Source: Chlorophyllum brunneum (lineage: Eukaryota > Basidiomycota > Agaricomycetes > Agaricales > Agaricaceae). From it: DNA of 64,000 nucleotides. Shown piece after piece: positions 11,189 to 49,993 of this stretch. The notes under the pieces are model-generated. The model saw nothing but the letters and a program-made list of their open reading frames with translations, was not told the origin of the DNA and ran no database searches. Numbering within the stretch: the first letter of the stretch is position 1; the number at the start of each line of letters is the position of its first letter. Both the position numbers and the translations under genes were made by a program. The stretch is from the NCBI GenBank assembly GCA_963576785.1, contig OY756149.1:434001-498000 (forward strand). The letters run 5' to 3'.

Positions 11189-11317
11189 ATGGGTAATTGC
11201 ACTTCCCGTCGACAGCGCCCTTCATTCCATCTCGGCCCCCAATTACCACTTCACACTGTACCAGGCGCCTTTACAGCTAATCCAAGACGGTCTTCCGATT
11301 GTCAACTGCGGGCTGCG
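11189..11317 (+). pseudogene. 5' fragment of a NACHT NLR gene, cut by a LINE
   Basis: The ATG lies in a good context (ACCATGG) and opens a frame beginning MGNCTSRRQ. The frame reaches AACTGCGGGCTGCG at 11304-11317, the left copy of the LINE target duplication. The same 14 bases reappear at 25391-25404, and the frame resumes there in the same phase, so 11189-11317 and 25405 onward were once one exon. MGNCTS fits an N-myristoylation signal (Gly2, Ser/Thr6) with an adjacent Cys4 that could be acylated; membrane attachment of the ancestral protein is an inference. Transcripts from this start would now run into transposon sequence. Confidence 0.7.
11304..11317. repeat. LINE target site duplication, left copy
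   Basis: AACTGCGGGCTGCG flanks the non-LTR element here and at 25391-25404. The first two A bases cannot be separated from the poly(A) tail on the right, so the true length is 12-14 bp. Confidence 0.85.
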
Positions 11318-11402
11318 CGTCCCTTCTTTGACTCTTACCACCATCATCGATTTGTTAAAAAGTCGATTACACGGTTGAGAGTACAAGTACTAGGATAATA
11401 TC

Positions 11403-13524
11403 ATGCCTGCTTTGCGCTCCGATCTCTCTCGCAGAGATCCTGCGTCTGATAGTGAGGAGGATGTCTTCGGGTACTCACCACGTGTCCCCGCCCCCTCCCT
11501 CTTCGCGGCCTCTACGGCTCCGCCCCCCCCTGGCATCCTGCTCACCAGGACGTCAGCCGCTGCTGGTCCTTGCCCCTTAGGTGGCTCGACCGCTACCACC
11601 CCTGTGGCCCCCCCGACCACTCCGCCCTCCCCCGTGGTTCCCCCGGCTGGCACCACGGCGAAGACCCCACACAGGTCCTCCAAGCGCCCAAGGAAGGAGG
11701 GCAATCACTACTACTCCGGCGAAGCTGGAAAGGACAAGGACTGGGCTGAGCAGGTGGAGGAGGAACTGGCCCCAAAAAAGGCGGATGACGACAACGATGA
11801 CCGGGAGAACCCCGAGGAATTCTACGACGCGGCTGTTCTGGAGGTCAGCAAGATCTCTGAGTGGGTCAAGGCCTGCAGCACATTCAATATGAGCGGCGAC
11901 GATGGGCTCGCTTTCGGGCACGCCTTCGTCGAACTTACGGATACCTTGATGAAGGCGGGATGGCTCAAGGTGGCCATTGACGAAGAGAAAAACGATCTCC
12001 ACGGTTGGCTTGGCATCAACTTCGGTAAGATCATCGTCCGTGCTGAGGAAACCCCCCAGCCCGACCTCTCCCCCCTGCGACGGGGCCCCGTGGGACCCGC
12101 GCGTAAACCTGGCGACGTCCGCATGGACGTTATCGAACAGATCATCACACCGGGCATCGCCGAAGATGTCAAGACCAAATTAGACGTCCCTGATGAGGAT
12201 GTCCAGATGATCACCAAGGCAGAGTTCCAAACTGTCTCAAGAAAGAAGCCGTCCAAGGCACGACGTGCCAAGGCCGCCCGGCCTGAAGCTCTAAAAGCCC
12301 CAGACACCACTCCTCCCGCTGGCCCGCCCAAGACCGCGCCAGCCCCCAAAACCACTCTGACCCCCAAGGCCTTGGCCCCCCAGGCCAAGTCCTCCTACGC
12401 TGCTGCTGCAGCCAGGGGTAAGAAACCCCCTCCTGCTGTCACTGGGCGGGACCCCCTCAAGCTCCTGGAACTCGCCAGCAAGTTCCCGGAACTCGCCAGC
12501 AAGTTCCCGGAACTGTCGCACGAGAAGGTTGTGGCTATGTATGACGCTGCCTTCTCCCCCTCCCCCCCCCGCGGACAAAAGGCTGACCAGAAAGGCAGCC
12601 ACCATCCGCTCGACACTCAATAGTCCCTCGCGCAAGCAGGTGATCATCCCCCTCCTAACTGGCCCGACGTCTCCCAACTTCGGCACCATCATTGACTCCC
12701 TCAACACCTGCCTCATTGCGGGAAAGTCAAAAGCCCGGGTCATTGCCGCTTCGCAGGGTAAGTTGGGCCTCATGGTCCACACCTCGGAGGTCTTGACCCC
12801 GACTGAGCTAGATGCCGTCAAGGCCTGGCTCAAAGACAAATTCGAGGGAACCACCATGGGCGAAGCCTCCCTCCCAAAGTCGAAGTCATTCGTGAAGATC
12901 ACGGACGTATCTTACGTCATCCCCTGCGGCCAGGTCCTGACGGCCGACGACGTCACCACCAGCATCCGCAGTTCGATCCACTCGGATGCCATCCAGCTCG
13001 TGTCACCCCCAAGGGTGCGACGAAACTCCAAACACTCGGACACCTACACGGTCTGGTTCGAGATATGGGACTCTAAGGCGGGGTCCAACGTCAACAAGAT
13101 TGAGGACAAGTTCCTCAACATCTACGGCAGACTCTTCCATATCAGGAAGGCCAACGCCAACCCAGGCGTCCCATTCTGCGGCAAGTACTGCAGGTGGGAC
13201 CACCCCCTCATTCGATGCCGGGCGAGGCTCTTCACGTGCGTGCACTGTAAGGGCCCCCACTCCACCGTCAACCACCGCTCCTTTGCCAGCTGCTGCAAGG
13301 GCAACGACAAGGCTGACCCGCCAATCGCGGCCACCCCCACCGGGGAACCTTGCCCTCACAAGGCATTATGTCCCAACTGTGGCAAGGAGCACCTCACCAC
13401 TGACTGCAAGTACCTGTTCTGGAAGAAGCAATTCGACCACGACTGGCACGCCAACAAAGCCCTCGAGCTTAGGGCCAACAAGGGAGTCCCGCTTGCCCCT
13501 CCCTCCTCTTCCCCGGCTGGTTGA
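11403..13524 (+). pseudogene. LINE ORF1 (gag-like nucleic acid binding protein), frameshifted
   Basis: Frame 1 runs 11403-12623 and frame 2 takes over before 12623 and ends at 13524. The switch is at a C-run (about 12561-12570), where the alanine/proline-rich frame 1 text gives way to a long open frame with conserved content; one added or two lost C bases would explain it. The N-terminal part is Pro/Ala-rich with an acidic patch. The C-terminal part ends in zinc knuckles: CVHCKGPHSTVNH and CPNCGKEHLTTDC fit the C-x2-C-x4-H-x4-H/C pattern, with a partial one before them. ORF1 proteins of such LINEs bind element RNA. The frameshift could be a real slip mutation, a sequencing error in the C-run, or less likely a recoding site. 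Confidence 0.75.
12467..12508 (+). repeat. Two tandem 21-bp units in LINE ORF1
   Basis: GGAACTCGCCAGCAAGTTCCC occurs twice back to back, encoding ELASKFP twice, followed by a partial third unit. The period is a multiple of three, so the frame is kept. Confidence 0.85.
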
Positions 13525-16111
13525 AGCCAGACCAACCCCCCCAAATGAATTACACACCCAATGCACAAGACGGGCCTCCTCGCTCACTACTGAGGGAGTT
13601 GAAGGTCTGCTCGCATAACGTTGGAAGATCGTACGGAGTGATGGAGACAGTCCTCGCACGCAGAGGTGATGTCGACCTCCTCCTCATACAAGAACCCCCG
13701 TAGAGATATCTCCGCAACATCCCTTCCCCCGTCTCCAGTGACGGAGTCCCACTCGTAGGAGGCCCAGTCCATCCCGACTGGATACTCCTCTCTTATCCCT
13801 CCCCTGCCGAAGAAGTCCTCCAAGTTGGACGCCGGCGGTTCCCCGAATGCACGGTCGACCTCAACCACCGAACTATACCACGAGTCTTGGCCTTTGCCCA
13901 TAAAAGGCTCGCAAAACTCCGACCATCCGTTCGATGGGACATCGTTGAACATTGAGACCTCCTGTGTATATCCTTGTACGTGGGAGGAGAAGAACTGCTT
14001 CTGCTCAACATCTACAATGACAGTCGCAACACTACGCTCCATTTCCTTGAGGAGCGGCTTTTCGATCTGCCGCCATTTGTACTGATGGGTGGTGACATCA
14101 ACATAAGATCTGAGCTATGGGACCCTTCGACGGTGCAACACCCACCAAGTGCGGACCGGCTGCTCATGATCGCTGAAGCCCTCAACCTTGTGAGGACAAC
14201 TCCGACCGTGGCCATTCCGACGCGCTACGCCGCGGATCCCAACCTCCCAGATACAGTCATCGACCTCCTCTTTGTCTCGGCGATGCTACCTTACATCCCC
14301 TCCCACACCATCCAAGCGGGTGACCGGTACAACTCAGACCATGCCCCCTTGCTTATCAACATCCCGATCCCGCATATGGATGTCGTCATAGAAAGGCTGA
14401 CGATGCCCAAGGGGTCAGATGAAGAAACCAGGTTCTTGACGGAGATTACGGAAGGAATCATCAACAGAGACTGGCCGACAGATGACGCGGAGGAGCTAGA
14501 GAGATCCGTCGATGAACTCGGAGGCTTATTTCACAGATCCTGGGACTACCATGCGAAGAAGACCAAGATCACCACCAGATCCAAGACCTGGTGGAATGAA
14601 GAGTGCGCCACGGTGCTTGCGACACACCGAGTGGACCGGAAGAACAGGCGCAAGTGGGCTGCCTTTCGCAAAACCACGAGGAAGGTGAAGAGGGAGTACT
14701 TCGACAAGAAGATACAGGAGATCTCAGTCGACAACAAACGGCCATGGGACTTAATGCCATGGGTCAAGGATTGGGCCCTCCCGGCCACGGAAGCCATCCG
14801 TCAGAATGGGCGACTATGTCTCACTACAGACAGCCTGTGGAGAGCCCTCGACGAACATTACAATGCGGTGCATGATCGACCGGTCGACGCAGCGGTACTA
14901 CAGGAACTTCCCCCTCCAACTGGGGAGGAGAGTAGGACTTGGGTCGACTTCTCTCTCTTAGAGATGATGGAGGTGCTCAAGGATACCTCGAACTCTTCTG
15001 CCCCCGGCCCCGACCACGTTTCCTGGTCCCACCTCAAACAGATCACTGCCACGGATGCCTGTGCCGCACTCTTCCTCCGGATCGGTAGTACGTGCCTGGC
15101 CCTCAGCCATTGGCCCTCACACTTCAAAAAGTCAACGTCGGTCGTCATTCCCAAGCCGAACAAGGCCGACTATTCCACCCCTAAGGCGTTCCGACCGATT
15201 GTCTTACTCAACACTCTTGGCAAGCTCATTGAGAAAATGCTAGCCAAGCAACTGCAATTCGAGGCGGTGAAGTTCAAGGTCCTTCACCCCCACCAACTGG
15301 GGGCGATATGCCAGCGATCCACCGAGGACGCAGGCCTCTTTCTCACCCACATCATCCGGGGAGCCTGGACGAAGAAGAAGAAGACGTCGGTGCTTGCATT
15401 CGACGTTGCCCAATTCTTCCCCTCCCTCAACCACGCACTCCTCGCCAACATACTCGAACGACAGGGGTTCCCTCATCAAATTGCAGCTTTCTTCGGCGAC
15501 TACCTCGAAGGACGATGCACCTCTTACCGATGGAATAATGAGACTTCCCCGGAATTCGATGCTGTGGTGGAGGTGGGACAGGGCTCTGCCCTTAGCCCCA
15601 TCCTCTCCGCACTGTACCTAGCACCCCTCCTCTATGTCTTTGAAGCGCAAATGGAAGAGCACCGCCTCCACTGGGATTTTGACATCCTCTCCTTCGTCGA
15701 TGACGGCACACTTGTCACCCAGTCCCCCTCCCTCGAACACAACGTCGAGATACTTCAGCACATGTACCGCAAAATGGAGCGGCTCATGGGCCAGTTCGGC
15801 CTCGCAATTGAACACAGCAAGTCCGAGGTCTTTCACTTCACACGTGCAAGACGGGACACCAAACCCTCAATCGACCTGGGTTCACCACCATTCACGGGTC
15901 GCTCCCCACTCAAGCCGAAGGCGCACTGGAGGTACCTCGGATTCTACTTCGACCGGATGCTCACGTTCAAGGAGCATGTACGGTACTACTCCACCAAGGC
16001 CATCTCGACAGTCAAGGCATTAAAAATGCTAGGGAACTCGGCTAGAGAGCTGTCCCCTAACAACAAGAGACTCCTGTACCGCTCGTGTGTCGTACCTGTT
16101 GCAACCTATGG

Positions 16112-16116
16112 GTACC
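16112..16116. repeat. Copia target site duplication, left copy (GTACC)
   Basis: GTACC lies directly before the TG of the left LTR and again at 23472-23476 after the CA of the right LTR, the 5-bp duplication usual for Ty1/copia integration. Confidence 0.92.
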
Positions 16117-16688
16117 TGTTGAAGTTTCGGACATATTCTAGAAATAGACTATGAAGTCATTATGATAATAATAGACTGATCCGTTACTTTCCAGTAACTT
16201 CATTCCGTAGTAACTTCCTATGAGTTGCTCTGCATACGATAAGAGTCATAAGTACTTGATAGATTATTCTACATAGTACCAATGACTAGATACTACGTTC
16301 TGCAGTACTCCGCAGGCACTACGCCGCAGTTAAAGAGAGTCATAAGGAACAATCCATGCAATGCTAGTATTTTATGTAGTATGACTCGCATATGTTACAA
16401 TATGTATATAAACCCCATGTAGCAGACCTAAGTTCTGCATCTTGTTCAATCGAACAACTTCTTCATCATTGCCTATCTCTTTGAGTACAACACCTCAATC
16501 GATCTTATCGACTTTGACCTCTACTTGACTGACGTCAACCGCTTTATCAATAATATCTGTCTATCCGAACTACCTTACTACAGGTATCAGATAGAAGCTT
16601 ATTATCTCGGTGAGTAGACCCTACATTCTCTCCCACTGCGTTTACTGCTGCCCCCAGCAAACAACTCGTTACGGTCGTTTCCTCAACA
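16117..16688 (+). repeat. Copia 5' LTR
   Basis: 572 bp direct repeat starting TGTTGAAG and ending CTCAACA, matching 22900-23471 except for three transitions. It holds a TATATAAA box about 290 bp in. Confidence 0.95.
16405..16412 (+). promoter_or_regulatory. TATA box in the copia 5' LTR
   Basis: TATATAAA in the middle of the LTR, in the position expected of the U3 promoter. The same box lies in the right LTR at 23188-23195 and could start transcripts into the LINE 3' half. Confidence 0.5.
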
Positions 16689-16700
16689 GGTTATGGGCCC
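16689..16700 (+). other. Copia primer binding site (initiator tRNA-Met half type)
   Basis: GGTTATGGGCCC begins at the base after the left LTR. It does not start with TGG, as a site for a tRNA 3' CCA end would. It is complementary to the anticodon stem-loop of eukaryotic initiator tRNA-Met (GGGCCCAUAACC), as in Drosophila copia, which is primed by a cleaved tRNA half. Confidence 0.75.
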
Positions 16701-16847
16701 CGGTAGCCTTACCGATGGTTAAACCATTATCATCTCCTCTAAATGAGATAGGATGATAGGGCTTTACCTGACAGAGTTATCCTTGCATTTGATCATTGCT
16801 GATACGAGAATTTTCTTCTAGAAAGAAATACACTCGACGAAGATATT

Positions 16848-17981
16848 ATGTCTACTAATAATATCGTCGCTGGTTTACCTAAGCTTAATGGGCCAAAGAA
16901 CTATGCGTTCTGGTCTAGAAGGCTTCAGGATGCCCTAACCCTCATTTCTGTCACTGGTTCTGACCAGTCCGGATGGACTGTGACAGACCAGGATCTCTCC
17001 CCTAAAAATCCTGCCGCTTTAACAGAGGAGGATAGAAGGAGAGAACAATTGAGAGGTCAGGCATTGGCTGTTATTAATGGCACCTTACCTGATTCCCTGT
17101 TACTCCATGGGCATGACGCTCCTGGATTCCTCTGGACTGATTTGAAAACCCGCTTTGGGACACCTTCTCCTGCCGCGGTGTATTCAATTCTCCAAAGAAT
17201 GTTGCGAAAGCGCATTACAGGGAATCAAGATCCAGCAATAGATCTAGCTGAATTGAGGACAATGGCTTCTCAATTAGAAACAGCTAAGGTAAAATTACCA
17301 GAAGTTCTTGGCGCGATGATCGCTTTGAATGCATTACCACCGGATTGGAATGCAGTGGCCCAAACAACATTGGCGAATAATCACGATGTTGTAGATATGA
17401 CCTGGGAGGTAGTCCAGCAGGCTATAAATGCGGAGTGGTCAAGACATGAAGGGTCAAGACCTAACATGTCTAACCAACAAGCCTCCTTCGCAGCCACTGC
17501 CAACTACCAAACTCGCCCTCAGGGCAATATCCCCAGGACTCGCCCTGGACCACCTTGGAACTGCTTCCACCCTGGAGGCGATACCAGGACCCAGCCTGCG
17601 AGAGGTCCACGCCACCCTGCCAATCCGAGTGGGCAGCCTCCTCAGCCTTCTCCCTCTTCTCCTACCTGGATTAATGTCCAGAAAAAGAAGAAGAAGCCCA
17701 AAAAGCGCCAGGGTAAACCCCAGGCCCACATGGCGGAAGCCATGGCGGGCTTCGCCGCTGCCACGGAACCAGCGGTCCATCGTTTCACTGGTCCGGGGAT
17801 GACCCCCTTCGACCTAATGAGGCGCATGGACGCGCCTCGACCCATTCCCGCTCCTCCGACCACTCGTGTACTTGTGAGTGAGAGACCAAAACCGCTTACT
17901 TGGGTTAATCCCAAGAAGGTCCAGAAGGCACGAGAAAACACTCGTGCTGAGCTCGAGAAAAAGGTGCGTGCTGGGGCATGA
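16848..17981 (+). CDS. gag: Copia gag-like polyprotein region
   Basis: A 377-residue open frame starting MSTNNIVAGLPKLNGPKNY, the usual start of Ty1/copia gag (DUF4219/UBN2 type). FWSRRLQDAL, LLHGHDAPGFLWTDLKTRF and LNALPPDWN are family-like positions. The C-terminal third is Pro/Lys-rich. I see no intact CCHC knuckle; NCFHPGGDT near residue 240 could be a decayed one. It ends at TGA 17979-17981, and the pol region follows in the same frame, so the stop either is a mutated CGA or is read through to make gag-pol. Confidence 0.8.
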   Translation: MSTNNIVAGLPKLNGPKNYAFWSRRLQDALTLISVTGSDQSGWTVTDQDLSPKNPAALTEEDRRREQLRGQALAVINGTLPDSLLLHGHDAPGFLWTDLKTRFGTPSPAAVYSILQRMLRKRITGNQDPAIDLAELRTMASQLETAKVKLPEVLGAMIALNALPPDWNAVAQTTLANNHDVVDMTWEVVQQAINAEWSRHEGSRPNMSNQQASFAATANYQTRPQGNIPRTRPGPPWNCFHPGGDTRTQPARGPRHPANPSGQPPQPSPSSPTWINVQKKKKKPKKRQGKPQAHMAEAMAGFAAATEPAVHRFTGPGMTPFDLMRRMDAPRPIPAPPTTRVLVSERPKPLTWVNPKKVQKARENTRAELEKKVRAGA

Positions 17982-20900
17982 AACTTATGTTTCACCGCCC
18001 TCCTCGAAAACTCACTGCGGATCCAACAGGTGACCACCTGGCGCGACCGCATCACTGGTCCTTCGCCCATGCAAATGGCAAAGAAACATGCCCTCGATCG
18101 TTACGATCGACGGATGCACGAGGTCTCTCACCCCCGCGCTCCGAAAGGACGATCGGTGACACCGCCCGGTGCACCTTCGGTTCCTTCTGGTCACCCCCCA
18201 GGTTGTACCTGTGAGGGACACACGAGAGTAAGCAAATGGTTCACTAAAAATAGTAACCCCGATATTAACGCGACTCGCGTCCGTTTTGCTTTTCTCTTAC
18301 CTCATGGTTCGCCATATGCCTTATTGATTTCTCCCAAATTTGGGAATAAACTCAATTTGGTTATGCATCATGTGGTAAAGATCCCAAGCATGGACTCCAT
18401 CGCCCGGGGCGACTCGCTTGAACCTGGAGAGATTCGGCCGTACTACCTTCCTCCTCCGGAGGAAATAGTAGCTCTGGTTGTCAGAACCTACGAAGAGGAG
18501 TTCCCTCCTCTTCCTAGGGCCTCCCCTCCAACGGAGCAATTCCAGAGTAAGAGATACTCTCTTACTCAGAAGAACAAGACCACTGATAGGCGTCCTGCCA
18601 TACTTTCAGTGTTGGTAGACGAAGCCTTCAAACGGCTTGAGAGCGAGAAAGAGGTCGATGACCTCATGGTGCCGGCTCAGGATGTTGCCTACAACATCTG
18701 CGACCCCAGGAATCCTGCAAACGTTGCAGGACCCTCTTCTGGGCCTCTCCCGAAGTCTCTGAAGTCCGAACCCTTTGCTTTGGCACCTCAATCTGAGGTG
18801 TCTCTCGGACTTTCGTTGACCAACTATGGAAGTGACTTCAAGAAGAAGGGAGGAGCTGGGTACGTGATCAATCCGATCTCAGATACTCTTACTAACCCTA
18901 ATACACAGTCCTGTCACCAATATGCCGACCGGCCGTCTTCGCAAGAAGAAGGGCAAGGGCAAGGGGAAAGGTTGTCGGGGGCCGGGCATATAAATACGCT
19001 ATCGGGATCTTTAGGATCCCATAATAATGTATTTTCATGCGGATCGATGAATGAGAAGTGTTTTAACACTTCTCAATTTTCTTGTTTCTCCACACGCATG
19101 CCCGATCAGTATTTAAGAGTACTGGATCAAATTAGATCTCGATCGCTAAGCAATGATCAAATTATAATGCCACTAGAAGAATATAGTGACGTATGGTTAT
19201 TAGACTTAGGGGCATCATGTCATTACACCCCTTATGCGGAAGACTTCATCAACTTTGAAGAACTCGAAGTTTTGATCCCAATTAAGACTGTAGGAGCACA
19301 AGGCCCCTACCTTAATGCGGTTGGTCTTGGTGCAGTTATACTTAAGCATAGAGTCTATAACGGGAAGACTGACAGCGTTCAACCAACGCAGATATTAATA
19401 TATCCAGTCTTCCTTCTAAAAGGAACCTCTGAACGACTAATGTCAGTGGGACAGTTATGCCAGGATGGCAAAACTGTTAGAACAGATGCCAACAAATCAG
19501 TAGTAGTTGATAGCGAAGGAAATGCTATTCTTCAAGCATATCCTTCAGCAAGTCGCAATACTACTTTACATTTTGTTAACACAAAAATTGTACATTCGGA
19601 ACAAGCAGCTATGACTGCAGATCCGATCATTGGCTACAAAGTTGTACATGTGAGATTAGGACATCCCTCTAATTGTATCCTCAATCATTTTGAGAAAAAT
19701 ACGATTGGGTTTACTCCGGTGCGGATTCCCGAGCAAAAGCCAGTCTGTGACGGTTGTGCCAAGGGAAAGATGCACCAAAAACCCTTTAGAGAGAACCCTA
19801 CACGCGCAAAGTGTCCATTCGAAAGAATACACTCGGATTTAGTTGAACTTCCGATTCTTTCTTACCATAAATTTAAATGGGTCATGACCATAATGGACGA
19901 CTTTTCCTCTCATGGATAGATTCGCTTCCTCCATAAGAAATCAGAAGCAGCAGAAGAAATGAAAAATTTCATTGCCTTAATTCAGACTCAATACGAGACT
20001 AAATTAAAATATCTCTGCACTGATAGAGGAGGAGAGTATGCAACTGACGAGTTGCAATCTCATTTGCACTCATTAGGGATTATACATGAGACTAGTGCAC
20101 CGCACATACACCAACAAAATGGTCGAGTGGAACACTTGAACTGAACTCTAATGGATAAAGCAGAAGCCATGCGGCATCATGCTTGTATTCCTGATGGTTG
20201 ATGGGAGTTTTCTATAGATCATGCGATACATATCTATAATAAAACACTGGTATCACGGCTTATGTGGAAAACACCTTATGAAGTGTTGAATCAGAAGATT
20301 CCAGACATCTCCAAAGAGAGAGTCTTTGACTGCGGTGCTTATGTCTTTCTCCCAAAAGAGATAAGAGACAATAAACTGACAGCGAAGTCAGAACTCATGA
20401 TTTTCCTTGGTTGGACATCAGATAGGAAAAATTATCGTTTCATGAGGTACCTAAATGGAAATGTAATCTATACATCTCCAACAGCCATATTCAGCGAAGA
20501 ACACTTCCCTAAATGTGTTGGGAAGAAGTGAGAAGAACAGATGAACCAACCATTATCTTCTACTTCTCGAAGTACACCTTCGGAAGTTATTGTCTTCCAT
20601 GCTCCAGATCCATCTACTGGTTTACCTATTGATAAACCACCAAGCCCTATTCCCCGAACTTCTACCGGAAGTTCTCCGGAAGAAAGGACTTATAGATCTG
20701 TACATGGATGGATTCCAACTCCTTTCCCTGAACCTAAAAAGAATAAAGGAAAGGGAAAAGCACCTAATATTGATACTGATGTTCAGGAGGAGTGGAATGG
20801 TATTGTGCAAAACATTCTCTTTCCACCAAGAGAAGCACAAACACCAGAAGACGATGACAGTGATGGATTATCTTATGCTGATCCACCTAATCACTCTGAA

Positions 20901-22865
20901 GGTTCGAACCATCCGCCTTCTCAAAGAGATGATCCGGATGTACAACCATTCATACCCTATACCCCTGTCGAAGATGATCGGGATGCTGGTCCTTCTGTAC
21001 CACAAGGTCACTCGGATCAAATACCGGTTCCTGAAATACTTCAGAGACCGCAAAGAACCAGAAAAGTACCTGAACATCCAGGAAACTTCTATGGTTCTAC
21101 AAAGCATCCGACCAAAATACTCCAGGACTATGAGATGTTCCAACCTCCTAAGTCGAAGTTGACAAGTTCCACAAGTAGACTTGTTAGACAAATTCGATCA
21201 GAGGCTTCCAAACCTGGAATAATCGATAGACGTTCTCAGCATGAAGCTTCTACATTAGAAGACTTATGCAGAGAAGGAGGAGTAGGGATGATCGATTATC
21301 TGTGCGCTCAAAAAGTCGAATCTCCATTAGTTCCTATTTCTTTTAAGGATCTAAATTGACTACCATCAGAAGAGAAATCTAAATGGTGGAAAGTGTGCTT
21401 AGAAGAGTTAAATTCACTCAAAGAAAGACATGTTTATGACTTAGCTAAACTTCCGCCTGGAAGAAAAGCTGTCAAAAATAGATGGATCTTTACACCCAAG
21501 TCAGACGGTCGATACCGTGCTCGACTAGTAGCAAAAGGATTCTCTCAGATAGAGGGAATCGATTACGATGAACTATTTTCACCAGTAGTCCGTTATGAGA
21601 CAGCACGACTCATATTTGCAGTCGCTGCCCTCAACGATTGGGAGATGCTCAGTTTAGATGTTAAAACTGCTTATCTCTACGGAAAACTGGATGAAGAACT
21701 CTATATGGAACTTCCAGAAGGTTTCAATACAAGTCGTGGTAATTTGGTTTGGAAATTAAACCGAGCCATTTATGGATTAAAGCAATCTGGACGACAATGG
21801 TGGAAGGAATTGACTAAGTCAATGACCGACCTAGGATTTGTCCGATCCAAACTAGATGCTGGAGTCTATTATTACTATGACCCTGAAACCAAAGAGCTTA
21901 TTATAGCTCTGGTCTATGTAGACGACTCAATGTTTGTCGGAATTAGAGGCTCTAGACTTCTATATGAGAAGCGAGCACTCTTTATGAAGAAATGGGAATG
22001 CCGAGACCTTGGTCCAACCAAAGAGTTTCTTGGTATGAAAATTTTGCGAAATCCTATAAACCGATCAATCACCCTAGACCAAATGGATTATCTAGGAAAA
22101 GTTCTTGATCGATTTAATATAATTGGAAAGGAAGAAATACCATTACCAAATGGATTTATCTTCGAATCCAATACAGGAAAAGCGACACCTGACTTCATAA
22201 AGAGGTATCAACAATTAGTAGGATCGGTTATGTATCTGATGATAGGCAGTCGGCCTGACATAGCTTTCGCCACTGTCAAATTGTCACAACATATGACCAA
22301 CCCAACTAAAGCGCATTATAATGCAGGCTTACATTTGCTAAAGTATCTTAATGCTACTCGCAAATATAGAATTACCTATAATGGAAGTTCTATGCAAGGC
22401 CTGAATGCCTTTTCCAACTCTGATTGGGCTGGTGATCCAATTAGTCGTAAATCTGTAACTGGGTATTTCTGTTTATTAGCCAGCGGAGCTATCGCTTGGT
22501 TAAGTAGGAAACAGAAAACTGTTGCATTATCTTCCACCGAAGCTGAGTATATGGCTTTGTCAGATTGCAGTCGACAACTTGTTTGGACTGTCAATTTGTT
22601 GGAAGAAATTGGTATCCAATCATTGGCCCCTTATCTCTTCGGTGATAATGAGGGTTCAATATTTTGGGCCAAAAATCCAGTAATAGAAAAACGATCAAAA
22701 CACGTCGACGTCAAATACCATTACATACGTGATTTGGTAGAAGATGGAAAGATTGAAATATTCTCTGTGAAAGGCACTGAAAATCCTGCCGATATTCTCA
22801 CAAAGAATTTAGACAAAATTAAATTCAATCTATTCCGACCTCGCCTTGGCTTGACGTTTGAGTGA
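17982..22865 (+). pseudogene. pol: Copia pol region: protease, integrase, RT, RNase H, with stops
   Basis: One frame continues from gag. Protease: DVWLLDLGASCHYTP, where the catalytic D-S/T-G is D-L-G (Leu codon 19206-19208). Pre-integrase zinc finger: HVRLGHPS and CDGCAKGKMHQKPF. Integrase: HSDL, CTDRGGEY, NGRVEH. Reverse transcriptase: RWIFTPKSDG..., LVYVDDSMF. RNase H: FSNSDWAGD (usually an Asp in place of this Asn, codon 22416-22418), STEAEYMAL, HVDVKYHYIRD. In-frame stops lie at 19917-19919, 20142-20144, 20199-20201, 20529-20531 and 21357-21359. Each is one transition away from Trp or Arg, and Trp or Arg is common at most of these places in the family. The element is coding-dead. Confidence 0.9.
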
Positions 22866-22890
22866 TTAAAATTCTATATCAATACAGAGC

Positions 22891-22899
22891 AAGGAGGAG
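22891..22899 (+). other. Copia polypurine tract
   Basis: AAGGAGGAG lies directly before the right LTR, where plus-strand synthesis is primed. Confidence 0.8.
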
Positions 22900-23471
22900 T
22901 GTTGAAGTTTCGGACATATTCTAGAAATAGACTATGAAGTCATTATGATAATAATAGACTGATCCGTTACTTTCCAGTAACTTCATTCCGTAGTAACTTC
23001 CTATGAGTTGCTCTACATACGATAAGAGTCATAAGTACTTGATAGATTATTCTACATAGTACCAATGACTAGATACTACGTTCTGCAGTACTCCGCAGGC
23101 ACTACGCCGCAGTTAAAGAGAGTCATAAGGAACAATCCATGCAATGCTAGTATTTTATGTAGTATGACTCGCATATGTTACAATATGTATATAAACCCCA
23201 TGTAGCAGACCTAAGTTCTGCATCTTGTTCAATCGAACAACTTCTTCATCATTGCCTATCTCTTTGAGTACAACACCTCAATCGATCTTATCGACTTTGA
23301 CCTCTACTTGACTGACGTCAACCGCTTTATCAATAATATCTGTCTATCCGAACTACCTTACTACAGGTATCAGATAGAAGCTTATTATCTCGGTGAGTAG
23401 ACCCTACGTTCTCTCCCACTGCGTTTACTGCTGCCCCCAGCAAACAACTTGTTACGGTCGTTTCCTCAACA
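22900..23471 (+). repeat. Copia 3' LTR
   Basis: 572 bp, equal in length to the left LTR with three substitutions (positions 23015, 23408 and 23450), all transitions. Confidence 0.95.
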
Positions 23472-23476
23472 GTACC
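23472..23476. repeat. Copia target site duplication, right copy (GTACC)
   Basis: GTACC follows the terminal CA of the right LTR and matches 16112-16116. Confidence 0.92.
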
Positions 23477-24957
23477 GGCTCTGGTTCCACGACAAGTCCC
23501 AGATGAAGGGGACCTGCAACATCCTTAACAAAATGCAGCGTTGCACTGCCCTCTGGATCACCGGAGCCTTCCGAACATCCCCCTCTGGCGGCGTTGAGTC
23601 CCTCACGGGGCTCATGCCTGTTAAACTCCACCTCCGAAAGCTTGCCGAACAACAAACGTCGAGGCTACACACTTTGGATAATGGACACACACTGGCAAGA
23701 CTGATAAAAGAGTATCATTCTTCCTCACATCGACTTCACATCAAGAATTTCACGGAGATTCAGAAGAAGAAGACACTTGGAGCAGTGATGGATGTTTCCC
23801 GCCCCACCCCCGAGACCCGTTATGTAGAATCTTTCAACTCTGTTTCAAAGACTCTCTGGCCTGGACGTAGGTTACTTGACCGGTTCCCTACTAATGTTTC
23901 TTTCATAGGGTTCAACCGAGACAAACCCCACCTCTCGAAGACCCTCTGGGATGACGTGACGATGAACACGACGACGGACCCTGGGTCCATCATCATCGGT
24001 ACGGACGGCTCAGTCCACCCCAACCCTAATCCGCTCGCCAGCCAGTTCACGGCGGCAGCCACCATACGACATCTGGATGGAGGAGCGTCTGTCATGAAGA
24101 GGCTCGGAGGCACCACCTCCACCGACACAGAACTGGTCGCGCAGTACCTAGGCATCACCAAGGTCCTCGCGTCCGCCAATTACGACCAGGTCGAACACAT
24201 CCATGTGTTCACCGACTCCCTCATAGCCTCCCGACTACTGCTCGACTGTTCGCCGCACTCCTGCCAGCAACAGTCTATTCTCACCTCGAAGGCGCTCCTG
24301 GCCTGGTTCAATGGATCTGACCAGCGCAGCCTTTCATTTTACCACACTCCGTCCAAGTGCAAGTATGGGTTGCAAAAAGCCACTCACGACTGGATCCAAA
24401 CAGTTGCCTGGCCGAACCAAGGTCGTAACCACCGGGTCCCCAACTCGATCGACTACCTCCGAAAGAAGTCCACCGAACGTGCCATTCACACATGGCAAGC
24501 CATGTTCGGGTTCAAGTCTTACAGCAGAAGCTCCTTCCTCCACCTCCCGGTGCGAGCGAATGGAGCCCCTGCTCTACCGTCGCACATCAAATCCGGTCCC
24601 TGGATACGAGAATGCAGATACCAGCCACAGCTCTTTGCAAGAGCTTGTCGCGCCATACTCTGCCATGCCCCGATCGGGGAGTACTGTCTACGGTTCTTTC
24701 CCACCGAGGATCTGGCCTGCCACCACTGTGACAACCAGATGGTTCAAACCAGGTCGCACATCTTATATCGGTGCCAGAATTTCGATCACCACCTCGGCAT
24801 CGGCACAATCAAGGAGTTTACCAACTTCTTGCGCTGCAATCATTCCGCGTTCACCTTTCCCCCGGAAGGGGAACACCCTCGTATCTGCGCCGGGTCAATT
24901 CCCCCGCCACGTTGTCCTCATCAAGTTGGTCAGAGGTTCGGGTCGGCTCTGGTCTGA

Positions 24958-25349
24958 TTCCTTTCTCTCTTTCTTTTTCTTGTGCTTCCACGGCTATGGA
25001 GTTCACCTCATTTCTCTGTTTCCCCCTCCTTCGCTAGTATACTATTTATATAGTCTTCCTTTCCTATCCATCACTCCCATGGTGCGGGGCCAATAACCCC
25101 CCCACACGCTAGTACCATTTGCTGTTCTCCCTTGTGACTGCGAGTAGATAGTTCTTCTTCTATCTGTTTCTCTCTCTCTCACTCTCTTCTCAGGACAATG
25201 TTGGTGCCAAACCTCTCTCTAGTGTACGCACTAGACGGCGTCGAGTCTCGCGGGGTTAGTTTACTCTCCCTTCTCCGAACAATTTGTACGAGTATGCATT
25301 TGTATGTATGTACACGCGGACTGCGATCGAGCACCACTATATAAATTGA

Positions 25350-25390
<41 letters not shown>
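24958..25390 (+). other. LINE 3' UTR and poly(A) tail
   Basis: About 400 bp of pyrimidine-rich, non-coding sequence after the ORF2 stop ends in an A-run from 25356 to 25390 (two further A bases belong to either the tail or the target duplication). The tail marks target-primed reverse transcription. Confidence 0.85.
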
Positions 25391-25394
<4 letters not shown>

Positions 25395-25404
25395 GCGGGC
25401 TGCG
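25391..25404. repeat. LINE target site duplication, right copy
   Basis: AACTGCGGGCTGCG, identical to 11304-11317. The NLR reading frame resumes directly after it in the phase left at 11317. Confidence 0.85.
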
Positions 25405-28221
25405 AGTGCTTCATCTCAACTTGGGACGCAACAGTTGTACAACGGGCATGGCACCGAGATACCATCCCAAGTCTCTATGTAATACCCACATTCAACAGCA
25501 GAACCCCTCACCTATCAACCTCCTTCCTCGGCACCTCAACAGAACCCACAACTTTAAGTGAACTTTGCTTCGCATCCAATGCAATCTTCCTCGAGTGTCT
25601 CAATACCCAATCGGCTGGGCAGCAACCAGATCCCCAGGCAGATACCTCACCATTACTTGATTGAAGAATATTCGACACCCGCTCAACACCCCTCTATACC
25701 CCAATCTCCTCCAGATGAGCAGGCTGAATATCCCGAGGCCCAATCACCACCTCGTGGCACACCAAGTACCTCTATGGTAGATTCAAGACAGGATCCTGAC
25801 CACCAACCACCGATTGTGAGTACTTCGTTTCCGTTTTGCAGGGGTATCCGAAGTGCCATTATTGACGTTGTGACCGGCGGTCCCAGCGCCCCCACAGAAA
25901 TGGTGGTTTCTTCGGTGGCGCCCACCATTTTACCATCGAGAAAGCGGTAATGAACGATAGGAGAAACTCTGATAATTGTGAGATTTTACACAATTTCCCA
26001 ATCATCTTTACCCACTGATCGTCCCTTACCCAAGTCATGTCAGTGTTTCTGAAGGAAGTGATATCCGGAGCGGCATTCGATGACTCTGAGCGTGATCCTC
26101 CTCCCCGGTGTCATCCTGGAACCCGGTTGGCCATCGTCAACGAGGCACAGTACTTTATCGCCAACTGTGTCGGTGAGAGGAAGATGCTCTGGATCGTGGG
26201 CCCAGCTGGAGTCGGAAAGTCTGCAATCATGCAGACCATCGCTGAGACTACATCCACCGGTATCACTAATGACATTCTAGGTGCTTCTATTTTCTTCTCC
26301 ATCAGAGGGCGCAGCGATGGATCAAAGGCCATCACAACGCTCGCCTATCAGCTCGCAGTCATACACCCCCCTTATCCCCAGTTCGTCCAAAATGAGGTGA
26401 CGAACGATCCATCACTGCTGCACAAATCGGTGACCGTGCAGTTCAACAAGTTCATTGTTGAACCCTTCACTCACCCATTAAGGGATCCTCACCGTTTCTT
26501 GATCCTGATCGATGGCCTGGATGAATGCAACGGTCACCATGCCCAATGCGAGCTCCTCGAACTCATCTCAGATTTTTGCATCACATACCCCTCCTCACCC
26601 ATCGTATGGGTTATTGCCAGTCGTCCCGAACCTCATATCACGTCATTCTTCACTCATGTGGAAGTTATCCCAGTATATCGCAAAGAAGAGGTCAAGGTCG
26701 ATTCAAACGAAGCCTGCGAAGACGTTGAGCGTTTCCTTCGCAGCAAGCTGAAGAAGGTCCAACTGAAATCATTCACGCTCAAAGACCTTCCGCAGTGGCC
26801 CACCGAAAGCGATTTTCTGAAGATTGCTGACGCTTCGAAAGGGTTATTTGCCTACGCCTCCACGGTGGTCAAGTTCGTTGATGATCCAGGCTACGGTGAT
26901 CCGGCTTTACAACTTGAGCAGGTGCTGGAGGTCATTGACACCAGTTCAAAGTGGCTCACGAAAGGCAAATCTCATCCAATGGCGCACCTGGATGCACTGT
27001 ACTGGCGCATCCTTTCCAGAGTTCCTGCTGATGTTATGGTTAACACCAGAAAATTGCTGCTTCTAATGATTGATAACTTCTGGTCTGGCCGGAGCTCGGT
27101 CCGTATGTGCAATTGGTTGGGGATGACGAAGAACGCTGCTTATGGTGCTACTTATCATCTCCGCTCGGTCCTTGACGTTCCTGAACCAGACAAGGCCAGA
27201 TACTATGGACTCCAATGCTTCCATAAATCATTCACCTCGTGGACTTCAATCGGTCAAGTTTCTGTCCAGATGTGGAGAGCACGACCAGACAGCTTCATTC
27301 TTCGTGCACGCGCAGGATTCTCGAGGATGTACTAATTGGTAGAAGTATCTTGCCTTACGTCTAGAAGTGTTATCTGAAGATGTGTGCGTACAGGTCCTGT
27401 GAAAGAGGGTCGTGCCACCACTGCCAATATACCACTCTCATGGCCATGTCAAGACTGGCTAGACAATGACTCTACGAGGTCCTGGATATATAGATTGGCA
27501 GCTACCCAGACCGTCAAGGGGCTCACTGAAAAAAAATCGGAATTTCAGAGCTCGTTCTTCATTCGCGCATTAACTGCATTTGATGAATCAATCACTCTTG
27601 GACACCGCTGACAAGTTCCGTCTGCTTCTGTTCGTAAGTCTTCTTTGACCATATCCTCCTTCTTTTGTTGAAAATACGCCTCAGGATGAATCTCGACGAC
27701 CTGAATTCATGGAGCGCAACGTACTCAAACAAATACCGATTCGAGCATTCAACTCCTGTGATATTCAAAACCTCGAGGGGTGGGTTAGCTTTCGATTCAA
27801 GTGTCCTCCCACAACCATGGCTGCAATACCAGATCCATGGGACTGCCACGTGAGTATGGCTTCCCCTATGTCCCCCTCTCGCTCATTGATTGAGCTCGGG
27901 TAGCATGTCCATGAAGGATGTTACGAAAAAGGTCAAAACCAGGATTGGACAAGTCGCTTTTGGTTGGAGGACCAATGTAACTGCCGGAAACGCCTCTTCC
28001 ACCAATTTGAGAGTGGGAAAATACGGTTTCCGGATAATCTTGTGACGGTTTTCATATCCATAACCCTCCTCGGCTATGTTGAGTATCGCTTTGTGGACCC
28101 GGAGGATGGCGTTTCCGAGTGGACGTATATCATCCCTTATGATTTCCCATCACTCACAGGAACGTACCATGACACGATATACCAGCTATCACTCCGGTTA
28201 TCTCAAACTAGAGCAGTATAA
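25405..28221 (+). pseudogene. NACHT-domain NLR, body of the interrupted gene
   Basis: The linker frame (25405-25950) is Pro/Gln/Ser-rich with two in-frame TAA codons, 25480-25482 and 25555-25557, each one C-to-T step from CAA. The main exon (to 27335) begins at or before 26037 and holds a NACHT ATPase: DDSERDPPPRCHPGTR, Walker A GPAGVGKSA (about 26199), Walker B LILIDGLDECNG (about 26500), then VWVIASRPEP and the winged-helix-like GLFAYASTVVKFV. Near 27235-27250 the open frame departs from the family pattern and a neighbouring frame (DFNRSSFCPDV) fits better, suggesting a one-base shift. Later pieces (IPLSWPCQDW near 27440, KSEFQSSFF, and 27964-28221) look like the C-terminal part. How 25950 joins 26037 is unresolved. 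Fungal NLRs act in non-self recognition and cell death. This copy is probably null, but a shorter product from the NACHT exon cannot be excluded. Confidence 0.75.
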
Positions 28222-28602
28222 TTAGCTGAGCTGATTATGAATACTCAAAGTTGCAGTGACGACGGCCAGGACCAGCCGTCCGTCCTCCCACTGGATCCTT
28301 GCTGATACGACCTGCACCACTGTACCAAACTCATAGCCATTCCACCATATTCTCCAACAATAAAACAACTAATGAAACACTTTTTTCCCTGGTTCTGATC
28401 GGAACAAAAATCGGAGTCGTGATGTTACTCGCTCCTTCCACTCCTCATGCCCCTACCATACTTCAAAGATGTTACCAAGAGCAGACAAAACCGGCTGATG
28501 TATCCTTTGAAACTCCTAGAACCAAGGAGGGGGACTGCGACATCGACCGGCAGGTCGAACTCAAAACCAAAGAAGAAAAACGGAACGAGTCCACTCAAAC
28601 GT
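28222..28602. other. Convergent intergenic region, nothing recognised
   Basis: 380 bp between two convergent gene ends; it probably holds both 3' UTRs. Confidence 0.35.
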
Positions 28603-30457
28603 CTATGCCGCACTCGCCACCTCATCCTCACTAAGCTTGACATCCTCCCCAGACTCGTCATCTTTCACCTCCTTTTCACCCTCCTCACCCCCTTCTTTTC
28701 CCTCACTCGACACTTCATCACTCAATTCTTCACCACCTTCACCACCCTCTTCCACCTTTGTCTCTTCTTCCTTCTCATGTTGCTCCTCGCTCGTCGGTAA
28801 AACCTCAGTTTCGCCCACAGATTGAACACTTATTCCTTCCTCGGCAATATCAACATCAACCGGAACGTCCACATCGGCTTTGGATGGAACATCCTCCTCC
28901 TCCTGCGTCTCAGGCACTCCCGTTTTCACTTCCTCCGTAGATGGTTCATCCGCAGGAGATAGTTCAACCACAGTTTCGTGAACGTCTTGAATTAGTACGG
29001 GTTCTGTCTCTGCTTCCACGACCTCTGCTTCCACGGCCTGTTCGACTTGTGGCGTTACCTCAATCTCTGCTTCGGACGCCGTCGCCTCCAACTCCACTTT
29101 TTCCGTGACTTGCACCTCTTGTGCTCTCTCCTGCTCCTCCTCGCGTTCCTTCCTTTGTTTCTCTTCCTCGGCCTTCGCAGCAGCAGCTTTTGCAAGGTCA
29201 TCTACCACACCAACAGTTTCACTAAGCACCATCGTATGCGTCCTATTCCTTCCCACTTTTTTCGGACTCTCCGTACCCGATCCAGGCTGCACCTGCTGTA
29301 CCTGTGTCTGTATCTCTTCAGGTTGCTGCTGCTGGTGTTGCTGATACTGCTGATGCAAGTGTTGTAAAGGTAACCGACGGGCTCTGGGCACATCAGGAAA
29401 GTCATCCTGAAACGAACTCGGAAGTTGATGTTGAATGGAAGCATGGCCTTGTCTGCGTTGAGGGTCATACGATGTACCCCGTCCCACTCCTCTTAAACCA
29501 AACCCGGAATCCCTACTATGAGCATCTTCATCCTGATCGTCATCTGCTATGGAGGGTATGACCAAGAATTCACTTGGTACAAGATCGAATTTGCTCGTGA
29601 GCGCGAGGAAACGCGCGTATAGTGATGATTCAGCTTCGGCTTGTTCGAAAGCTTCGCGATGGTGGAAGTATGCATGCGCGAATATGCGCCCTAGACGACG
29701 GGCAAGAGAGGAAAAATGGCGGTGGGATGATGTAGGGATTTGTAGACTTGGGGAGCGGTGTGTTAGTGTTAAAAGTTGTGTATGGGAAATGTCAGCTTGG
29801 ACGTACCGAGAAGGGAAAGCTCTGGGTGAGTTCAATAGCGCTGTTGCGCTGTCCAGCGTATGCAGGATATAGTCGATAGCACAACATTGCTAGCAGAATA
29901 TCAGAAAAACACGAATTCATGACGCCTCTTGCCACTCACTTCCATAGCGCCCTCGTTACCGTGAGCGACACATAGATACAGCCATTCACCGGCTTTCATT
30001 TCGGGACACGTCGTGCGCGAACACTCCTGTTGCAGAGTGGTAATGAGAGGATGGGTGAGGTCCTGAGCTAGGCGTCTACCGCGTCATATTGAGCCCAGGA
30101 TTCTCGAGGCACAGAAAAAGAGACGGACCTGAGTTGCTCGTATATCCAGCATGCCTCGTCAACAGTGATGTCCCTCTCCTTCTCTCCTTCCCCATCCCTG
30201 CCCTCCTCGCTGCTCTCCTTGTCACCGCCCTCCGCTGACTCCCTCTCCTTGGCCTCCTTGCCCGCACCGGGTAGAGAAGTGATAGTCTCTACATCATGCA
30301 CATCAAGTCTTATCAGCAACGAAATGTATTCCTGGAGTTGAAACGCGCTGTCGAGTGATGACAGTGTAGGAAGTGACTTGACTGGGTAGAAGGTGGATAT
30401 CCGTGAACCACGTAAAGGTCTGTGGGGGAGCAGCTGAGTCTGTGTTTCTGTCGCCAT
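28603..30457 (-). CDS. mob3: MOB4/phocein-type Mob protein (fungal MOB3) with acidic tail
   Basis: Mob-family adaptor of the phocein class, a subunit of the STRIPAK complex (striatin, PP2A, GCK kinases) that in fungi governs hyphal fusion and fruiting. Four exons, 30457-30129, 30075-29940, 29889-29807 and 29746-28603, give 563 residues in phase. Motifs: ISTFYPVKSLPTL, WIYEQLRRLAQDL, ECSRTTCPEM (zinc Cys), GEWLYLCVAHG, CCAIDYILHTLD, SSLARRLGRIFAHAYFHHRE (zinc His) and LTSKFDLVPSEFLVIP. The start is the ATG of MATETQTQLLPHRPLRGS; an upstream in-frame ATG at 30532 would add 25 residues and is less family-like. After about residue 215 the protein carries a long tail, first Gln-rich, then strongly Glu/Val-rich and acidic. 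Vertebrate MOB4 has no such tail. Confidence 0.92.
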
Positions 30458-47082: not shown

Positions 47083-49993
47083 TCACACGGCACGTCCCCA
47101 TCCAAACCACTTCCACCACCACCACTTTGACAAATCCTCACCCACCTCATCTTCATATTGAACCCTCACCTTCCCTTTCCCAATCAAAATATCAATCTTA
47201 TCACCAACCCATTCATTTCGTCTTCCACAAACACATCCACATCGATTTCCACTTTCACTCCTGCTCCCATTTCCACTTTTACCAACACCTGCACTAGGGG
47301 TATTGCTTGAACCAGGATTTGATTCCTTTTCCTCTCCCGCACTACCACCGTTACTACTATTATTATCCTCCAACGACGAATTCAATAAAGTCGCAGCGGC
47401 TTGCCAACCAAGCGTAGGCGAAAACACTTTTCTTTCAATCGAAACTCTTCTCACTCTCGGAATCCCTACTTCTTCCAAACTTTGATGACTTTGAGTACCA
47501 GGTCCAGGTGAAGAAGGAGAGGAAGGAGGTAATACAGACGATGAAGGAAACGAAGGTGACATCGGTGGAGATGCTGACACCGGGGTGGTGGTGGATATTG
47601 TTGATGAACGTGATATGGGAGATACAGAATTTCGTAAAGGCGAAGATAACGATGGTTGATGTTCTGATACAACTCGTGCACGACCATTCACGTTTTGAGT
47701 TTTGGTAAGTTTCCAACCTAAGTGTAGGGGTTGGTTATTAGGGATTTTGGTGGATAGAGTTTCGGGATCGGTGTCGAGGAAAGTTGGACGTGGGATGAAT
47801 ATCTCGGTATTGTCAGTTATATGTCCTCGTGTTGATGTTGTGGATTCAGGTGAAGGAGAAGAAGGCGATAATGATAAGGTACTATCTAGACTTGTCATCT
47901 TCGTAGTCGAAATGTCGAAAGACAATTTTACAGGCTTTCGTTTGACTTTTTGAGGTGTTAGTGGTGTTGGTGGAAGACCGATTGGATTAGGGAAAGTGGC
48001 GTTTTGAGGGGTAACGATGATATCGTTTGAGGTATGAGGAATGGTGAGAGTGTTGAGTGAAGGGGGAAAAGGGTATCGTTGATTCCTATCGGCACCCTCA
48101 TCACGACATTCCTTCTTATCCTCAACCTTGACGCGTCCACCATTACAACCACCACATATACATCTTCCGCCATCACGGTTTTCACCAAATCCAGATCCAA
48201 CAAACACACCTCTCGCAAAACTTCCTTCACGAAGTACAACACATCTCTCCTTCACATCCTTCGAAAACAAGATATGCGCATCTAAATTCCCGGCGGCAAC
48301 ACGTATCGTAATCGGTCCATGAAACGTTCGAGGAATATATAACACCATGTTTGAATTATCCATTCCCAACCCGCTTGTCTTGGGAGGGCTGTTATGTGTG
48401 GATGAAAGCGAAAGAGTCGACATGGATGCGGATGGAAGTGAGGAGGGAGTGGAAAATCGGACTTTGGAATGCTGTGGTTGTTTTTTGAGAGTTGTGGTCC
48501 TTGATGGGAGTTTTTGAGGGGAGAGTGATGGAGAGGTGAGTAAGGGAGTTTGAGCTGGTGTTGAATCGGCGGGTATGGTAGGGGTGTAAGTCCGCGCGAT
48601 TAGATGGAATGGCGGACGTGGTTCGGGTGCATGCTACAATGTGAACATGGTAAGTTACGAAGAATATACGATGACGATAACTTACAATACGAGCGACTAA
48701 CGGATGGTTCGTCCACCTCTCTTGGTCAGGTGTCGAGAGTAATCCCAATTCGATCGTCGTCCGTTTGGAACTTGGATTCGAAGAAGAAACGAGATGAACA
48801 TGAACATCAATCCCACCATTCTCAACTTCCAGTTTCAAATTCTGCTTCTTCTCTCCTCCCCCAATCAACGCACTATCCCTCCCAGCACCATTCCCAGAAC
48901 CACTAAAAGTCCTACTCCGTTTCAGCGAAACAACATGTTCCTCATCATTAGGTGAATCCAACTGATCATTTCCTCCTAATCCAATAAAATTATCATCAAA
49001 AGCTCGGAATAAGCCTCGTGGAAGGATTAATTCAGGGTCGATAACGAATACACCGGTGATATCGGAGATTTCGGACTGACGACGTTTGATGGAGTTGGGG
49101 AAGAGTTTGTTGAGGAAAGAGACCGGTGTGGCGTATGTTTTGCGAGAGAGGTGGACGTGGTTGGTCGGGGTTGGGAGTATGACGGGTGTGGTAATAGTTG
49201 GAGGGGAGGTAAGAGTAGCTTTGGGTTTGGGTTCCGTGATTGGGTTGTGCTTATCGTTAACGTTGTGCGCGACTTTGGGGGCGGCTGCGGTCGGTGTTGA
49301 AGTTGCAAGAGGACTAGACCTGATCTCGAGCGACGACGAATCAGATTTCGTGATTTCGATAGCCTTTCTCAACCGTGCGGAATCAACTTTGATCACAGGC
49401 GGCGAAGTACGAGGAAGTGGAGGCTGAGCGGAGTTGATTAATTTCGATTTTGTTATTTTTGCTTTTGGGGTTGGTTTGAATTTCGTTTCGGGTTTGGGTA
49501 TTGGGTTGACGGCTGAGGGGTCTCTCCGAGCTGCGTTTTCGTCAATGAGAAAGTCGAGAGTGCGACGACGTGGAGTCAAGTCCTGCGCAGACCGGCTAGC
49601 AGGCGGGTAATTCAAGATGGAGCTAGGGGTGGCGTTGGTTGGAGGACTGATGATGGCAGATGATATTGTGTTACGCCTGCTACGGGATGGAGGAGCTGGT
49701 ACACGCGGCGTGGGCGTGTTGTTACGCATGGTGGTGCTGGTGCCACTTGAGGATGCGCCTCCTGCAGCACGCCTGGCGCGGGGTTCGGCTACCAGGTGTT
49801 GTGCCTCGGGGGGGTTGACGGCTGTGGTGCACGTCTCGGATGTCGAGTTGGATGCCGTCCCCGAGCCCGAGTCAACACCAGAAGAGAAAGAATAGGTGGC
49901 AATGTAGTGCTGGAACTGAGGGCTGGCAAGGCAGCACTGGCGTTGAGAGTGCACAGAACAGAAGCCGGGATTGAGTGCGTCCATAGGTGCCAC
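47083..49993 (-). CDS. DUF7330-like domain protein
   Basis: Two exons, 49993-48686 and 48633-47083 (GTAAGT...TTGTAG), give 952 residues. The first 330 residues are Ser/Pro/Thr-rich and disordered with basic patches. The conserved part spans the exon junction: FVIDPELILPRGLF, IDVHVHLVSSS, IELGLLST, then MVLYIPRTFHGPITIRVAAG and DAHILFSKDVKERCV. This reads as the DUF7330 pattern of two related beta-rich stretches, with the LP-x-F-x-GP element. The second half is again low complexity, with a CXCGXCXGGRVK cysteine cluster (near residue 555) and a C-terminal GNRCGCVCGRRNEWVGDKIDILIGK-like end. No membrane segment is seen. Function is unknown, as for the family. Confidence 0.75.

Follow-up and report, generated by a model that had tools for sequence, protein, structure and literature searches.

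NLR-like proteins with NACHT/NPHP3_N domains are recorded in Agaricus bisporus, Macrolepiota fuliginosa, Leucocoprinus and Leucoagaricus, all of which we take to be members of the Agaricaceae, and among the matches listed they are 44–60% identical to the NACHT exon of the gene described here. This gene lies in the window, by which we mean the whole 64,000-nucleotide stretch of DNA analysed (C11:434001-498000; the genome searched comprises 38.9 Mb on 14 contigs). For the Pex13 gene the best named matches come from the Agaricales; among the best 120 of 1,104 matches listed, those with a species name are at most 78% identical and one record without such a name is at 91%. The Agaricaceae proteins share with it a motif exon placed before NACHT, and relatives of this exon-2 motif directly precede the NACHT domain in records from Leucocoprinus, Leucoagaricus and Macrolepiota and in some from Agaricus. 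They differ from it in that the MGN N-terminus of our gene is absent among the records compared, in that the copy in the window is pseudogenized and carries a nested transposable element, and in that no C-terminal repeats were detected in its intact paralogue, L018.

In agaricomycetes, N-terminal amyloid-like motifs (NLR05, NLR08, NLR22, NLR29 and NLR44) have been described in dozens of NLRs per strain (PMC9815663, in the portion of that paper used here). The N-termini of basidiomycete NLR-like receptors are annotated in 13–15% of cases, as given in the portion of PMC4986451 relied on here, and several plant NLRs require N-terminal acylation sites (PMC11467418, in excerpt). The term "myristoyl" occurs nowhere in the main text of PMC9815663, PMC4986451 or PMC12258605, "pseudogene" nowhere in that of PMC4986451 and "pseudogen" nowhere in that of PMC12258605; among the matches on NLRs and myristoylation in fungi listed from a mostly non-subscription literature, no paper dealt by its title with fungal NLRs. 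Literature of the same scope yielded no match for insertions of transposable elements or retrotransposons in NLR or het genes, and for basidiomycete NACHT NLRs combined with transposable elements it yielded titles only on Starships, a Rigidoporus genome and Mucoromycotina.

The overall account that we consider very probable for our locus is that of a once-working NACHT receptor gene which was broken in exon 1 by a full-length LINE, with a copia element arriving later and further decay probably following. The starting point would have been a working six-exon NACHT receptor gene, a dispersed member (on C11) of a family clustered on C9. The LINE entered exon 1 by target-primed insertion in the same orientation as the gene, as the target-site duplication (TSD), the poly(A) tail and the ends of sibling copies show, and the nesting shows a later entry of the copia element into the LINE. 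The insertion cuts the MGNC start off from what remains of exon 1, from the exon-2 motif and from the NACHT ATPase. Reading from the ATG at 11189 gives 69 codons before a stop inside the LINE at 11396, and a transcript from the old promoter would be predicted to encode just this 69-aa peptide. The gene is now also disabled by two premature stops, by the loss of 7 bp and by the gain of 4 bp, all recognised by comparison with paralogues. The dN/dS values point to purifying selection on the gene for nearly all its history and the LINE is young; the four other lesions may for the most part have followed the insertion as decay.

A TSD and a poly(A) tail are the marks of target-primed insertion, and an LTR element nested inside another element is nothing unusual as an event. 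The same three marks, TSD, poly(A) and nested LTR element, are common to our locus and to other LINE or nested copia insertions in host genes, with no unusual difference here; the insertion is a new case of a known kind and the event is ordinary. The LINE, 6,713 bp long without the copia element, has EN and RT domains, a poly(A) 3' end and a TSD. Its termini were fixed from sibling copies in the genome, independently of the 14-bp repeat: ten of the 11 listed 5' ends, the window included, begin within about 6 bases of TCCCTTCTTTGACTC, the remaining row (on C5) being not at an end, and all 12 listed 3' ends, the window again included, read TATATAAATTGATGATTT and then A's. The two copies of the 14-mer are exactly identical and sit at these sibling-defined ends, which is where the original prediction had placed a LINE target duplication; the first two A's of the 3' copy fuse with the poly(A) run at 25356-25392. 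Among the nine LINE copies with both ends available, six (window included) show a repeat of 13–16 nt that starts no more than 3 nt from the 5' end and abuts the poly(A), one, on C10, has the repeat 13 nt off, and those on C3 and C8 have no terminal repeat at their ends. The closest siblings, 95–96% identical, are on C7, C5 and C12, more distant copies occur elsewhere in the genome, and the 5' flank of the insertion is single copy in this one genome. The first ORF of the LINE also contains a 21-bp tandem duplication (12458-12499), probably a 21-bp insertion private to the window copy.

The copia element is 7,355 bp long and displays the features of Ty1/copia elements: gag, RVT_2, LTRs of 572 bp each (16117-16688 and 22900-23471) with TG..CA ends and 3 differences between them, and a 5-bp TSD, GTACC, at 16112-16116 and 23472-23476. 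A nested retrotransposon of about 14 kb had been predicted, and this stretch does consist of a LINE with a copia element, bearing its own LTRs and TSD, inside it.

Table. Features of the interrupted NACHT gene and of the inserted elements (positions in the window)
Feature	Coordinates	Strand	Basis
Exon 1, 5' part (start ATG, MGNCTSRRQR...), severed by the LINE	11189..11317	+	codons 1-12 match MGNR starts; in phase with donor
Target-site duplication, copy 1 (AACTGCGGGCTGCG)	11304..11317	+	exact repeat at LINE ends
LINE, complete at its 5' end and with a poly(A) tail, split by copia	11318..25390	+	EN and RT domains; siblings share both ends
Copia-type LTR retrotransposon inside the LINE	16117..23471	+	Retrotran_gag_2, RVT_2, LTRs, TSD
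Target-site duplication, copy 2 (AACTGCGGGCTGCG)	25391..25404	+	exact repeat at LINE ends
Exon 1, 3' part, rich in Pro, Ser and Gln; TAA codons in frame at 25480-25482 and 25555-25557	25405..25815	+	alignment and frame
Intron 1, GT..AG	25816..25886	+	ends placed from paralogue alignment
Exon 2 (RPHRNGGFFGGAHHFTIEKAVMNDRRNSDN), short exon for a motif that has relatives in NLR-like proteins of Agaricaceae	25887..25977	+	paralogue alignment
Intron 2	25978..26034	+	paralogue alignment
Exon 3, NACHT ATPase, 7-bp deletion after 27233	26035..27338	+	domain matches, paralogue alignment
Exon 4, 4-bp insertion near 27585-27601	27394..27633	+	paralogue alignment
Exon 5	27685..27849	+	paralogue alignment
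Exon 6, open to TAA 28220-28222	27904..28222	+	paralogue alignment

The NACHT exon matches the domain profiles NPHP3_N (3.5e-19) and NACHT (7.5e-11) and contains both Walker A (26199-26222) and Walker B (26499-26525), in agreement with the prediction of a NACHT ATPase exon with the two motifs; the predicted end at 28221 falls in the stop codon of exon 6, but this codon extends one base further. At E 1e-10 the exon has 97 matches in the genome, its own match included and some genes counted twice, and its closest genomic relatives, 63–75% identical, are the family on C9. Exons 2-6 of the window were aligned exon by exon with seven of the 16 loci of this family (L016-L030 and L037), the other nine being left out of the count. 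The window copy retains all eight splice dinucleotides that bound introns 2-5, and the single splice-dinucleotide difference in the seven paralogues is the acceptor of intron 2 in L028. The frame is open from exon 2 to exon 6 in five of them (L017-L021) and broken in L027 and L028; L018 forms one protein of 925 aa, from MGNRLSRR to the stop. A NACHT gene beginning at the ATG at 26037 was also considered and is ruled out by the presence upstream of exon 2, with splice sites conserved in the aligned paralogues, and of exon 1 in L018. In a tree of exon 3 with 17 rows (the window, L016-L029, L031 and L033) the position of the window copy inside the C9 family is not resolved. L018 (MGN) and L020 (ME) form a pair with support of 93/88, and the two MGN loci L022 and L027 form another with 94/99; start type and exon 3 tree may disagree, weakly.

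Duplicated NACHT exons occur elsewhere in the genome. L016 and L017 (C9:325105-326352, minus strand, and 329604-330851, plus strand) are near-identical, face opposite ways at a spacing of about 3 kb and have a tree distance of 0.017, a recent duplication. L043 and L044 (C3:764923-766116 and 802793-803986), which agree in score and in frame length and lie some 38 kb from each other, are probably a segmental duplication.

The interrupted frame had been said to resume in the same phase after the second TSD copy and to lead on to the NACHT exon. It is in phase and the reading reaches the exon-1 donor in phase 0, but only 25 codons follow the second TSD copy before the first of the two in-frame TAA codons listed in the table, and both stops fall within 51 codons. 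The connection to the NACHT exon does not hold, because these two stops intervene and exons 3 and 4 carry frameshifts of their own. The 7 bases missing from exon 3 are present in all seven aligned paralogues, and the 4 extra bases of exon 4, at about 27590, are absent from all seven. At least five lesions are thus present in the gene, the LINE counted, four of them beyond those in the original prediction. Since the two stops and the frameshifts of exons 3 and 4 are also present, the null state does not rest on the LINE alone, and to speak of a null allele due to the LINE would go too far. The copy is better described as a pseudogene of recent origin with several lesions, among which the LINE may have come first or later.

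The dN/dS of the NACHT exon is 0.148–0.189 between the window copy and five intact paralogues, as compared with 0.116–0.213 for the ten pairs among these five; because the former values match the latter, we conclude that the gene stayed under constraint until a recent date. At 4,068 sites where the siblings agree on the state, the LINE shows 85 private changes, a count that gives an upper bound on its age at this site, as some of the changes may be older than the insertion. C-to-T or G-to-A changes make up most of them (71/85), and 32 of 314 CpG sites are affected as against 0.4–1.4% elsewhere, a bias that is as expected from methylation of repeats. Purifying selection nearly throughout, as indicated by dN/dS, together with the young LINE, places the loss in the recent past.

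These data bear on the alternative that the gene had already been killed by stops or frameshifts when the LINE arrived, so that the LINE struck a pseudogene. The nonsense changes expected later than the LINE in exons 1-3 up to the deletion number 1.16, two being seen (P(≥2) 0.32), a rough estimate that rests on 50 C-to-T type changes placed by neighbour base versus the 71 of 85 counted. Both stops are in exon 1, for which 0.47 are expected (P(≥2) 0.08), and this concentration leaves room for prior death. The total of four lesions beside the LINE, against about 1.8 expected since its arrival (1.16 nonsense and 0.60 frameshift, the two frameshifts in the coding sequence having P(≥2) 0.12), speaks for such a death. 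It is also favoured by the frame-broken state of two of the seven aligned paralogues (L027 and L028), which have no LINE in the stretches aligned. However, at least four lesions at a mean of 1.77 have a Poisson P of 0.10, which is compatible with decay after the insertion, and dN/dS not above that of intact pairs implies that any earlier dead phase was short. We therefore consider an earlier death to be a serious but distinctly less probable course of events; under the preferred account, in which the LINE broke a working gene, most of the extra damage can be attributed to later decay, though the order of events is not proven.

The second question is whether the ATG at 11189, which lies with its frame as predicted, belongs to the NACHT gene at all. 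The MGNC ORF might have arisen by chance or form a small gene of its own; the LINE would then have struck the 5' flank or promoter of the NACHT gene. The left flank taken alone lends this some weight, for its protein score is weak, being reached by 8, 11 and 5 of 500 shuffles in the comparisons with L018, L022 and L027, respectively (the right flank alone: 0, 2 and 84 of 500). It is also in favour of a separate ORF that six paralogues on C9 (L019, L020, L021, L023, L024 and L025) appear, as judged by eye, to begin with peptides of the M(E/D) type in exon 1, a donor of the searched pattern being in phase 0 with the start in five and absent in L020, and that none of the 21 proteins with at least 60 residues before the NACHT mark (from 133 records, including the best 120 of 3,797 matches) begins with MG.

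Against this, MGNR starts (MGNRLSR) occur in three paralogues (L018:591, L022:923 and L027:874), all in phase 0 with an exon-1 donor and with no intervening stops, and on their account we reject a chance ORF. The window frame read over the joined flanks gives an exon 1 of 540 nt that likewise arrives in phase 0 at the donor at 25816. In L018 a second candidate donor at 729, nearer to the start, is also in phase 0; the donor used, at 1305, is the one aligned with that of the window. Over codons 1-12 the window is identical to L018, L022 and L027 at 24, 26 and 27 of 36 nt, as compared with 13–17 of the 30 bases upstream of the ATG in ungapped comparison. The joined exon 1 scores 136 against L018, where the best of 300 shuffles reaches 90; the score is weaker against L022 (72, best shuffle 70) and against L027 it lacks significance (58, where 95% of the shuffles are at or below 62). 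The exon evolves fast: as a genome query, exon 1 of L018 matched only itself. The remaining C9 loci have no start within 1.5 kb. A NACHT gene without an MGN-type exon describes only the part of the family with the six M(E/D) starts. The best 120 of 3,797 matches listed include neither an orthologue nor an empty site; near-full-length matches in this set are at most 65% identical and one fragment 69%. We take these comparisons as firm support for the MGN start and for an L018-like exon 1, with fast drift elsewhere in it, and the rival in which MGNC is a separate ORF is close to refuted and very improbable. Because the MGNR starts of the paralogues are in phase with the donor and exons 2-6 are backed by paralogues, the insertion did sever the beginning of exon 1 from the remainder, in line with the original prediction that it lies in a 5' coding exon of a fungal NACHT/NLR-like gene.

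It is also highly unlikely that the remnant works as a decoy or inhibitor in the form of a NACHT-only protein of 432 aa (ATG 26037, stop at 27333), expressed from a cryptic promoter or one within the LINE. This ORF of 432 codons does keep both Walker motifs and is free of stops as far as the deletion, but with about 0.69 nonsense changes expected in exons 2-3 since the insertion its openness is no surprise, and the 7-bp deletion swaps a conserved C-terminal stretch for unrelated residues.

Within the severed part of exon 1, the Gly2-led start is conserved above the codons that follow it in all four MGN copies: in the six pairs of these copies 24–31 of 36 nt are identical over codons 1-12, as against 22–36 of 93 over codons 13-43. 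The conservation of the first 12 codons (MGN[RC][LT]SR..) and the drift of the next 31 suggest a candidate N-acylation anchor. The motif MGN[RC][LT]SR fits the N-myristoylation consensus, and Cys4 of the window copy is a candidate site that would allow palmitoylation. In acylated plant CNLs such as RPS5, a Gly2 with nearby Cys or basic residues would similarly allow N-myristoylation or S-acylation (PMC11467418, in excerpt); these, however, are an unrelated class of receptors, acylation is a prediction in our family, and the likeness would be convergence at most. We put forward only tentatively, and with more doubt than conviction, that part of the family bears an N-myristoylation-type anchor before the amyloid-like motif and NACHT, that the M(E/D) sisters are soluble, that the family switches between membrane-bound and soluble forms by its first codons, in parallel to acylated plant NLRs, and that the LINE severed exactly the anchor in this copy. 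Since no MG start occurs among the 21 proteins mentioned above, the MGN trait is possibly local to this lineage. If acylated, the conserved MGN start would represent a testable membrane-targeting step for basidiomycete NLR-like receptors, the N-termini of which are mostly unannotated.

The peptide of exon 2 is GGFFGGAHHFTIEKAVMNDRRNSDN in the window and FSGAHNFVMYNPVLSDNSNS in L018. It is like the NLR05, NLR08, NLR22, NLR29 and NLR44 motifs in being a short N-terminal stretch before NACHT (PMC9815663, in the portion used), which is a resemblance only. In the paralogues exons 1-2 precede the NOD, and L018 shows no Pfam effector domain. C-terminal WD40, ANK or TPR repeats were not found in intact L018, the one paralogue searched, with Pfam at E up to 1. 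Many fungal NLR-like proteins are without annotated repeats. By homology the intact gene would encode a NACHT receptor-like protein, and as the C-terminal exons of L018 match no Pfam repeat, it is best called NLR-like, i.e. an NLR in the wide sense and not a strict one, with no detected sensor. With its clear insertion ends, paralogue-based gene model and LINE clock, the locus offers a well-bounded recent loss in a fast-evolving family of fungal receptors.

Two neighbouring features of the window may be added. An ORF with a Mob1/phocein match (28603-29889, minus strand) adjoins the NACHT pseudogene tail to tail, and further along, at 47083-50026 on the minus strand, DUF7330 matches lie in two overlapping frames, which are probably one gene with an intron or a frameshift.
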